Source of the DNA: Olsenella sp. oral taxon 807
GTDB taxonomy: Bacteria > Actinomycetota > Coriobacteriia > Coriobacteriales > Atopobiaceae
Direction of reading: 5' to 3'
Assembly (NCBI RefSeq): GCF_001189515.2
Contig: NZ_CP012069.2
Location: 620,001 to 684,000, forward strand
DNA: 64,000 nucleotides
Part shown: positions 7,989 through 46,075 of the stretch, one piece after another
Position numbering within the stretch: position 1 is the stretch's first letter
How the letters are laid out: each line of letters starts with the position of its first letter
Program-made: the position numbers and the translations under genes
The notes under the pieces: generated by a model
Told to the model about the DNA's origin: nothing
The model's input: only the letters and a program-made list of their open reading frames with translations
The model's database searches: none

Positions 7989-7990
7989 GT

Positions 7991-8453
7991 GTTCTTCAGG
8001 GGTTCGTGTGGGTTGGCGCCTCGGCGAAGATGCCAACCTGGCAGCGGCGCCACTCGCTCAGAGCCTGTCTTCTCGACCACGCGGGAGGGGCCAGAAAGGG
8101 GACGCCGCCGGCACGCCGTGGTGGCCCAGGCGCTCGTGCCACCTGACGCAGCTCGCGTCGCGATTCGTATCGCGACTCGCGTCGCAACAGTGTACACAAA
8201 CGCCCCAATCCGGCGCGGAGAGGCCCGATCCTCCCATTTGTGTACACTATTGCGTCCTCGCGTCTGTCCACAACAGCGCAACAGCCCAACAGTGTACACA
8301 AATGCCCCAAAACGGCACCGAGAGGCCATTTTCGGCGATTTGTGTACACTATCGCGTCCTCGCATCTGTCCACAACAGCGCAACAGTGTACACAAATGCC
8401 CCGAAACGGCACCGAGAGGTCATTCTAGCCAATTTGTGTACACTCTTGCGTTG
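7991..8453. repeat. Composite palindromic repeat element, copy A (three 60-bp units)
   Basis: The first ~195 bp (starting TTCTTCAGGGGTTCGTGTGG) closely match 22078-22268. Three 60-bp units follow at 8189-8248, 8291-8350 and 8385-8444. Each starts AGTGTACACAAA and ends TTTGTGTACACT, so each is an imperfect palindrome over its whole length. Spacers are 42 and 34 bp, themselves conserved (containing CTGTCCACAACAGCGCAAC), giving periods of 102 and 94 bp. Similarity to copy B ends near CTCTTGCGTTG at about 8453. It lies between the tRNA terminator and the flavoprotein gene; any overlapping frames show no protein-like character. Confidence 0.85.
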
Positions 8454-8469: not shown

Positions 8470-8623
8470 TGCCACTCGCTGCCGCCGAGTGGCAGGCAGA
8501 TCGTGCACTCGACGCCACCGTGTGGCACGAAAATCGGTATATGCGCAGTTGTCAGGAAATGTCGTGCCACTCGACGCCATCGAGTGGCACGACCATCGCG
8601 CACTCGGTGACAGCGAGTGGCAC
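8470..8623. repeat. Cluster of GTGGCAC palindromes
   Basis: Four related dyads of the type TGCCACTCG...CGAGTGGCA occur in 154 bp. TGCCACTCG-N7-CGAGTGGCA is at 8470-8494; a degenerate copy follows at about 8505-8530. A 31-bp near-perfect copy with TCGTGCCACTCG and CGAGTGGCACGA arms is at 8562-8592, and another degenerate copy is at about 8598-8623. It abuts copy A of the composite element and is a distinct family. Confidence 0.75.
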
Positions 8624-9006
8624 AACCGAGCTTCGCAAAGCCGGCGTCAACCAGGGTGCCTCGTCGTGGCGCCCTGGCTGACGGGAGGGGGCGTGCGGTC
8701 TGCGGGCGGGTCCGGCGCGTCAGCCTGAGAAGGCGCCACTGGCCTACTCGTGAAAGGTAACGACGCGAAGGGCATCGGCCGACCAGTTGTCGAGGCTCTT
8801 CGCGATTATCCCATTGCCCTGCCACATGGGATAGAATGATCTCAGGGAGACACGGGTCGAATCGGCCGATCAATTGCAGAGTCGGCTCAGGCTGCCCTGG
8901 GGGTTCTTTCATGGTTCTCTAAGCCTGGTTCACCCTGTCTTGTGGGGACATGGGCCTGCGGGGGAGAGACGTGACCGCACGGTCCGCGATCAAAGGAGCG
9001 TCGCAT
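8624..9006. other. Intergenic leader of the flavoprotein gene
   Basis: No gene seen in this 383-bp stretch. TAGAAT at 8832-8837 looks like a -10 box but has no well-spaced -35. The flavoprotein ribosome-binding site AAAGGAG lies just before 9007. Confidence 0.4.
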
Positions 9007-22064: not shown

Positions 22065-22693
22065 TCATTCATAAGGTTCTTCGGGGGTTCGTGTGGGTTG
22101 ACGTCTTGGCGAAGATGCCAACCTAGCAACGGCGCCACTCGCTCAGAGCCTGGTTTTCCGACCAAGCGAGAGGGACCAGCGAGGAGGCGCCGCCGGCACG
22201 CCATGGTGGCTGGGGCGCTCGTGCCACCTGACGCAGCTCGCGTCGCGATTCGTATCGCGACTCGCGACTCAACAGTGTACACAAATGCCCCAAAACGACG
22301 CGGAGAGGCCATTTTGGCCGATCTGTGTACACTCCTGCGTCCCCACGGTTGTCCACAACAGCGCAACAGTGTACACAAATGCCTCAAAACGGCACTGATA
22401 GGCCATTTTCGGCGATTTGTGTACACTATTGCGTTCTCGCGTCTGTCCGCAACAGCGCAACAGCCCAACAGTGTACACAAACGCCCCAAAACGACGCTGA
22501 GAGGCCATTTTGGCCAATCTGTGTACACTCCTGCGTCCCCACGGTTGTCCGCAACAGCCCAACAGTGTACACAAATGCCCCAAAACGGCACCGAGAGGTC
22601 ATTCTAGCCAATTTGTGTACACTCTTGCGTTGTCGCCCTGGCGGTGACGCAACCACCCACCCACACGAACTCACGAAGCTTCATTCATAAGGT
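22065..22693. repeat. Composite palindromic repeat element, copy B, with flanking 13-bp direct repeat
   Basis: TCATTCATAAGGT occurs at 22065-22077 and again at 22681-22693, bracketing 603 bp. Just inside lie imperfect inverted ends: CTTCGGGGGTTCGTGTGGGT on the left, and the reverse complement of ACCCACACGAACTCACGAAG on the right (at most a few mismatches). Inside are the ~195-bp head shared with copy A and four 60-bp palindromic units at 22274-22333, 22368-22427, 22470-22529 and 22564-22623 (periods 94, 102, 94). This is the layout of a non-autonomous, MITE-like insertion. It lies in the gap between convergent genes. Confidence 0.85.
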
Positions 22694-44903: not shown

Positions 44904-45073
44904 ATCCAGTCCTTTCTTGTAGCCGTCGCATGTGTAGGGTGTTGCTACTCACTATCCTAGTTACAGGCCATCCGGATGAGAAGCACATCTAGCCAGGAGG
45001 TCCCTTTTCCCGGTCCGAGGTGTCCTGCTCTCACAAGGACTGATGCGCTAGAGACGCCTTGCGGTGCGCCTCA

Positions 45074-45225
45074 CACTGCCACTTGGCAGTGAACGTGCAG
45101 AACGGGAACGTTCAGGGCCGAGTGGCAGTGCGACAGGAACGCTCGAGGTCGAGTGGCAGTGCAGCTTACACTGCCACTCGGTGGTGAACGTGCAGGACGG
45201 GAACGTTCAGGATCAAGTGGCAGTG
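45074..45225. repeat. Two 57-bp palindromic units (CACTGCC family)
   Basis: 45074-45130 and 45169-45225 are 57-bp copies starting CACTGCCACT and ending AGTGGCAGTG, with a shared interior (GAACGTGCAG-GACGGGAACGTTCAGG-like). The start-to-start distance is 95 bp and the 38-bp spacer carries another AGTGGCAGTG end. The geometry (about 60-bp units, about 95-bp period) repeats that of the unrelated AGTGTACAC units elsewhere in the window. Confidence 0.75.
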
Positions 45226-45299
45226 TGGGCTGGGATGACCTGCTTTGTGCGTTTGAGAAGTCAACAGGCGCTGAGTGTGCCTCGGGTGGGTGTCTCCAT

Positions 45300-46075
45300 T
45301 CCTCACGAAAAGGCGCACCCCATGTGATCGCACCTCGAGAGGGGTGTCGCAAAGTGCGCTTTTTGGTAACACCACGGTTGCAGAATGCGGTTTTCCGTGA
45401 GACGCAGGTTGCAGAATGCGCTTTTCCGTGAGGAGACGCCGCGTTTGCCCAGGTGAGGAAAAGCGCATTTTACGGAAAAGCGCATTCTGTGCATGGACCC
45501 TCACGGAAAAGCGCATTCTGCGGTCGCGTCGTGACGGAAAAGCGCATTCTGGAGCCCACCGGTTGGGCAGAGTGCGCCTTTCCGTGAGGCCAGACTCCGA
45601 ACCGAGATCTGCGGGCCCCCGCGCAACCCGCCCCGCAGGCTGGCGGGGGGTTGCTCGAGCGCATCTGCCCAGTTGAGCCATTCTCCATAGTGCCCCGCAG
45701 CCTGGCGGGGGGTTGCCCCACACCTCCCGGGCACCGCGACGTCACGGAAAGGCGCAGTCTGCGCGATCTGGGGATCACAGAGTGCACTTTTCCGTGAGAC
45801 GATCAGACCAGAGTGCGCCTTTTGGTGAGAAGCTTGGGCAGAATGCGCTTTTCCGTGAGGACGACACCCCCGGAATGCGCTTTTCCGTGAGGGTGACACT
45901 CCCAGACTGCGGTTTTCCGTGAGCTATCGGCCCAGAGTGCGCTTTTCCGTGAGGTGGAGGTAACAGAGTGCGCTTTTCCGTGAGGGGACGCCACGTTTGC
46001 GCAGGTGAGGAAAAGCGCACTCTACGGAAAGACGCATTCTGCGTACGGACCCTCACGGAAAACCGCATTCTGTGC
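45300..46075. repeat. Array of ~20 copies of a 20-bp repeat (AGAATGCGCTTTTCCGTGAG)
   Basis: About 20 copies, including variants, occur in both orientations. Between 45840 and 45985 five direct copies start at 45840, 45872, 45904, 45934 and 45965, a period of 30-32 bp. A 99-bp block holding three copies is itself duplicated (45421-45519 and 45973-46071). A GC-rich element CCCCGCAG-CTGGCGGGGGGTTGC appears twice at 45631-45654 and 45693-45716. No protein-like frame. It lies between the divergent manA and DUF956 genes. Confidence 0.85.

Follow-up and report, generated by a model that had tools for sequence, protein, structure and literature searches.

A probable ISL3-derived MITE family with modular palindromic cargo in the chromosome of Olsenella sp. 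oral taxon 807

The window analysed here is a stretch of 64,000 nucleotides (positions 620001–684000) of a 3,213,585-bp single-contig genome assigned to the Coriobacteriales, Atopobiaceae. Judged from its sequence, the element at window positions 22075–22682 derives from an insertion sequence (IS) of the ISL3 family, has asymmetric terminal repeats and encodes no transposase, and we put the probability that the family to which it belongs is an ISL3-derived MITE family at about 0.93, a figure that leaves the role of the palindromic units in its interior aside. The features of a MITE were found together: terminal inverted repeats, a target-site duplication (TSD), a short and multicopy body lacking a transposase gene, and an identifiable autonomous IS, represented by elements in relatives (L152, L155, L156 and L203) and by a relic in the own genome. 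The 8-bp length of the target duplication and the ends held in common with elements encoding an ISL3 transposase indicate the IS family.

The original prediction had proposed a non-autonomous mobile element whose transposase is elsewhere, or else a new repeat class. The first proposal is borne out by the 8-bp duplications that most complete copies possess as their own, by ends matching those of ISL3-family elements and by the decayed cognate in the same chromosome. The second holds for the palindromic cargo only and not for the element as a whole, which we read as an ISL3-derived MITE.

The window element and its copies

The complete MITE is 608 bp long (22075–22682, plus strand) and begins with GG and ends with TC, boundaries that are common to most of the 52 two-ended elements collected from the chromosome. 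It is flanked by the duplication ATTCATAA, the two copies of which (22067–22074 and 22683–22690, plus strand) agree at 8/8 bases. The left terminal inverted repeat GGTTCTTCGGGGGTTCGTGTGGGTTG (22075–22100, plus strand; consensus left end GGCTCTTCGGGGGTTCGTGTGGGTTG) is followed by a head (22101–22267, plus strand), a distant relative of the 5′ end of an ISL3-type element (72% between IS positions 1–163 and the MITE copy M2513447). Then come four T units, 60-bp inverted repeats with GTGTACAC arms and no assigned strand, at 22274–22333, 22368–22427, 22470–22529 and 22564–22623. The tail with the right terminal inverted repeat occupies 22624–22682, reads GAAGCTTCGTGAGTTCGTGTGGGTGGG on the minus strand and matches the 3′ end of an ISL3-type IS. 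The four palindromes were thus where they had been predicted, and the predicted imperfect inverted ends were located as GGTTCGTGTGGGT at 22086–22098 and AGTTCGTGTGGGT at 22659–22671 on the minus strand. Arms of the AGTGTACACA type gave 14 matches in the window against 1.7 expected.

A 13-bp direct repeat had been proposed to bracket the element. The 13-mer TCATTCATAAGGT does occur at exactly two window sites, 22065–22077 and 22681–22693 (three sites at up to two mismatches, with 0.44 expected), but the true duplication is the 8-bp ATTCATAA, the single best register of a sliding flank comparison, and the length of 13 bp was dropped. The repeat appears longer because the host TC and GGT coincidentally equal the terminal bases of the element. 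Since target duplications vary by site, the 13-mer is absent beside other copies, and its absence there does not refute mobility.

The full element is intergenic and lies between two convergent genes. The related copy noticed earlier is a truncated sibling at 7990–8452 (plus strand), which retains the left end, the head and three T units (8189–8248, 8291–8350 and 8385–8444) and is missing the right end; it is also intergenic, immediately downstream of tRNA-Lys.

When the full element was used as a DNA query, 81 matching pieces were found in the own genome, and the head alone gave at least 40 matches (the best 40 of 109 candidates scored). The end motif GTTCGTGTGGGTNG has 118 genome sites (62 + 56), versus 8 (4 + 4) for the reversed control. 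The 76 stretches around matches were examined together with the window, 422 kb altogether, so that all copy numbers are lower bounds. These stretches hold 64 left-type and 65 right-type ends forming 52 pairs, and the genome search for further copies thereby places at least 50 elements in the chromosome. The consensus ends, 5′-GGCTCTTCGGGGGTTCGTGTGGGTTG on the left and 5′-GAGGCTTCGTGAGTTCGTGTGGGT on the right (minus strand), are conserved but asymmetric. Complete MITEs are multicopy and measure 193–1050 bp; none overlaps a PF01610 match, and one copy retains a 3′ transposase remnant.

The flanks of the 52 two-ended elements were compared, and 32 of them carry a target-site duplication, 21 at 8/8 and 11 at 7/8 bases; among shuffled flank pairings, 0.26% reach 7/8 and none 8/8. 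The best register is unique: an 8-bp repeat directly outside GG... and ...TC, with a mean of 5.96 of the 8 bases matching. Per-position agreement is 0.67–0.85 within these 8 bp and 0.15–0.46 outside them, and the duplications are 70% AT. A convincing duplication is missing in 20/52 complete copies, which implies that many copies are old or rearranged.

By crude gene calling, 29 MITEs lie between tandem, 9 between convergent and 9 between divergent genes; these counts are near the local baseline and show no insertion bias to convergent genes. With one genome per species, no empty site or strain polymorphism was seen. At the window locus no exact empty site could be traced, as synteny is broken in congeners, where the two flanking genes stand far from each other. 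DNA similarity searches of congeners gave no copy of the element, so carriage at the same site throughout the relatives did not emerge. As the palindrome is likewise absent from the rest of the family, the element is not a fixed ancestral feature. Phage and plasmid records gave no matches by DNA similarity, and no match was found in viral contigs.

ISL3 elements in relatives and a relic in the own genome

The 8-bp duplication together with ends beginning GGCTCTTC was a lead that, from general knowledge, we presumed to indicate the ISL3 family, and it was subsequently tested. The MITE left end was searched across the order and matched in five other genomes. In G199, both MITE ends surround 732 bp containing an internally deleted ISL3 transposase (locus L152; PF01610 match, E 6e-16), with the asymmetric right end identical at 24/24 bases. 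In G108 and G199, ISL3 transposase genes (PF01610) are immediately followed by the right end (24/24), as are such genes at L155 and L156. Extended to 25 bases, the right end directly follows ISL3 transposase genes in Collinsella ihumii and in Atopobiaceae/Olsenella contigs. The exact 25-base sequence was present in eight stretches of GTDB contigs, five of them with transposase similarity and all from Coriobacteriales (Collinsella, Enorma, Olsenella and uncultured Atopobiaceae). On one of these, a contig of an Atopobiaceae MAG (L203), the two ends lie 1,439 bp apart and enclose a transposase that is apparently frameshifted. More intact related ISL3 elements in the order have 8-bp duplications, judged by eye.

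All 52 MITEs matched the L152 element in BLASTN, and the reversed control matched none. The copy M2513447 aligns with it as IS positions 1–163 (72%) joined to positions 549–732 (77%), the latter including the 3′ end of the transposase gene.

Some neighbouring observations concern these loci. L152 and L207 (Collinsella ihumii) represent an internally deleted 732-bp cognate IS that kept both ends, a nascent MITE in another genus. At L149 and L150, from two species of the same family (G097 and G108), a MITE-type left end (24/24) precedes the remnant of a transposase N-terminus, with a methyltransferase-like gene farther along.

The transposase with matching ends that was to be looked for was found both in these relatives and, in decayed form, in the own genome. 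For the latter, L152 and L155 transposase pieces were joined and run against the own genome. Transposase fragments with 43% and 59% amino acid identity and one stop inside were found at 2,542,722–2,543,216, within a decayed 653-bp relic (2,542,611–2,543,263) whose left end is worn and whose right end is intact. The relic and INTERMEDIATE are in the same genome. M2513447, a MITE of 325 bp, is the relic with its middle deleted: the final 176 bp of this MITE are 95% identical to the relic, and the opening 155 bp 88%. Searches with PF01610 and with the joined transposase revealed no intact cognate transposase in the own genome, and the cognate transposase now appears dead here.

The ISL3-type ends, the decayed relic and the deletion derivative lead us to a descent from IS to relic, and by internal deletion to MITE. 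The parent's ISL3 transposase, while active, would have moved copies in trans, a mobilisation that we infer as probable, and the insertion of the window element between its convergent neighbours would have duplicated the 8-bp target ATTCATAA. The MITE lineage would further have acquired the 60-bp palindromic T units, now 0–4 per copy, some of which would later have been split by a second array with a 31-bp period.

Palindromic T units and the second array

The interior of the two-ended elements is modular, consisting of a head, 0–4 T units and a tail. Each T unit is composed of AGTGTACACAAAT, 34 variable bases and ATYTGTGTACACT. Although spacings of 40–90 bp were allowed, 138 of the 139 units are exactly 60 bp long and one is 61 bp; it should be noted that the search demanded intact GTGTACAC arms, so that the conservation of the arms is partly by construction, and that of the spacing is not. 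Successive units are about 94 or 102–104 bp apart. At least 83 of the 139 lie in complete MITEs, and the other 56 in partial copies or stand-alone arrays (for example, at 736.4, 1908.6, 2124.7, 2286.7, 2666.1, 2728.0, 2802.3 and 2806.4 kb). Arms and length are kept even in seven stand-alone units that depart from the MITE consensus at 19–26 of 60 positions. None of 139 other genomes of the family contains the exact pattern, and neither do GTDB genome contigs, a set that may omit the own genome. One T arm matched the start of the L152 transposase gene at 13/14 bases; this was attributed to chance, as 15 other ISL3 loci lacked the match.

The constant length of the units, kept while their interior diverges, favours two protein sites at a fixed spacing. 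We therefore consider it most likely, at about even odds against the hairpin/RNA and mobile-repeat readings, that each T unit consists of two palindromic GTGTACAC sites at a fixed distance of 50 bp, recognised by a DNA-binding protein of the host, and that the MITE spread the units as passengers; this putative role is read from their geometry. Covariation across the dyad is weak except for a few central pairs, mainly 21/40 and 22/39. Meanwhile, the whole 72 nt of some T units fold as a strong hairpin, and this would also suit a function as RNA or as a cruciform.

REP/BIME and Neisserial NIME/dRS3 are short inverted repeats that cluster as arrays in intergenic DNA, and the stand-alone T arrays resemble them, but the T units differ in their invariant 60-bp length and GTGTACAC core. 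The units could themselves be tiny mobile or recombination sites of this kind, for which the MITE is merely one landing place. The T arrays located outside MITEs, which keep the same 13-bp arms around divergent interiors, would agree with such a role, as would the lack of T units in both M2513447 and the relic. However, no duplication was seen by eye around stand-alone units and the majority of the units counted above sit within complete MITEs, and we regard independently mobile units as doubtful. Passengers carried by the MITE remain our preferred reading.

About ten MITEs contain a T unit interrupted by the second array, in which the 20-bp motif TCACGGAAAAGCGCATTCTG recurs every 31 bp in both orientations. 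This motif has approximately 516 genome sites (up to two mismatches, both strands) and none in the 139 other genomes of the family. In the window, a TCACGGAAAAGCGCATTCTG array with the same period and both orientations is found outside any MITE at 45381–46072. A third short inverted-repeat family, of the GTGCCACTCG / CGAGTGGCAC type, was noticed at 45061–45227, near this 31-bp array, and at 8473–8640, where it adjoins the truncated MITE ending at 8452. The linkers between T units (e.g., 22345–22359) contain GTTGTCCACAAC, which resembles the high-GC DnaA box TTGTCCACA, possibly by chance.

Present mobility, known systems and meaning

Four PF01610 matches are present in the own genome. One belongs to an element at ~530.3–531.7 kb (L139) with an 8-bp duplication TATTTTTT, which encodes an intact transposase of 425 aa between perfect inverted ends GGCTCTTCGGGGTTTTTGGTGGGT; in two others the ends read GGCCCCTC(A/G)CGG..., and the fourth shows a single visible end, GGCTCCTCGCGG.... 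With its parent eroded, the MITE family is probably dormant, unless the 530-kb element with similar ends acts on it. This element has 20/24 end bases in common with the MITE left end, and could be moving the MITEs now, so that they would not be orphaned. Yet most of the shared bases fall within the outer 12 bp, the right end of the MITE departs from that element at 9/24 bases, and the MITE tail and the relic belong to a different subgroup, all of which makes present mobilisation from this locus improbable.

A structured RNA or BOX-like regulatory module kept for its transcript, with the inverted ends as the closing stem of a large RNA, is far less probable still and largely refuted as the origin: the 608 nt do fold far better than shuffles (z −7.7, ends mutually paired) and the head–(unit)n–tail layout is that of pneumococcal BOX (PMC3049150), but site-specific 8-bp duplications at the ends require DNA insertion, the tail is a remnant of a transposase gene and an IS end, the Rfam search gave two tRNAs only and no family for the element, and terminal inverted repeats and palindromes fold anyway. 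The folding of the whole element makes RNA or cruciform roles of the cargo possible.

The ISL3-derived MITE shares with ISL3-family elements (Zn_ribbon_ISL3/HTH_Tnp_ISL3/DDE_Tnp_ISL3; PF14690, PF13542, PF01610) the terminal GGCTCTTC... and the 8-bp duplication; its tail is the end of a transposase gene, and its parent relic is in the same genome. Unlike them, it has no transposase, its interior is replaced by repeat arrays, and its ends (GGCTCTTCGGGGG / GAGGCTTCGTGAG) are asymmetric, as in the cognate ISL3 subgroup. BOX of Streptococcus pneumoniae is built as boxA–(boxB)n–boxC (PMC3049150), and the two agree in having a fixed head and tail around a variable number of tandem units (0–4 per complete element here), many intergenic copies, IS-resembling ends and strong folding. 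They differ in that the MITE has clear 8-bp duplications and a traceable parent IS, and in that its units, inverted repeats of 60 bp, occur outside the element as well and in some cases have a second array nested in them. The likeness to BOX is an architectural analogy and not membership, as the comparison was one of architecture and not of sequence. RUP, Nezha, Correia and other bacterial MITEs (PMC10969869) are likewise short, transposase-less, with inverted ends and a TSD, and are paired with an IS in the same host or in relatives; the present family differs from these in its IS family and its modular palindromic cargo. A 2024 review on MITEs of prokaryotes (PMC10969869) uses neither 'ISL3' nor 'cargo' in its main text, although this does not prove that the family is novel.

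The element itself is of a familiar kind; it is the palindromes with their fixed geometry that still call for explanation. Two features are unusual: the full series within a single chromosome and the acquisition of two repeat systems of fixed geometry. One genome holds a rare complete series, from the relic of an ISL3-type IS through an internal-deletion derivative to MITEs with tandem palindromes, and a BOX-like modular repeat can thus arise from the end pair of a transposon and independently existing repeat units. The invariant 60-bp spacing of the T units, in spite of their diverging interiors, is a concrete handle for finding a binder. A bolder and rather unlikely possibility is that the T units are operator pairs of an undescribed host DNA-binding system for chromosome organisation or regulation, spread and amplified by the ISL3 MITE alongside the 31-bp-period array system; if true, a transposon would have rewired protein-binding places across the genome of one species.
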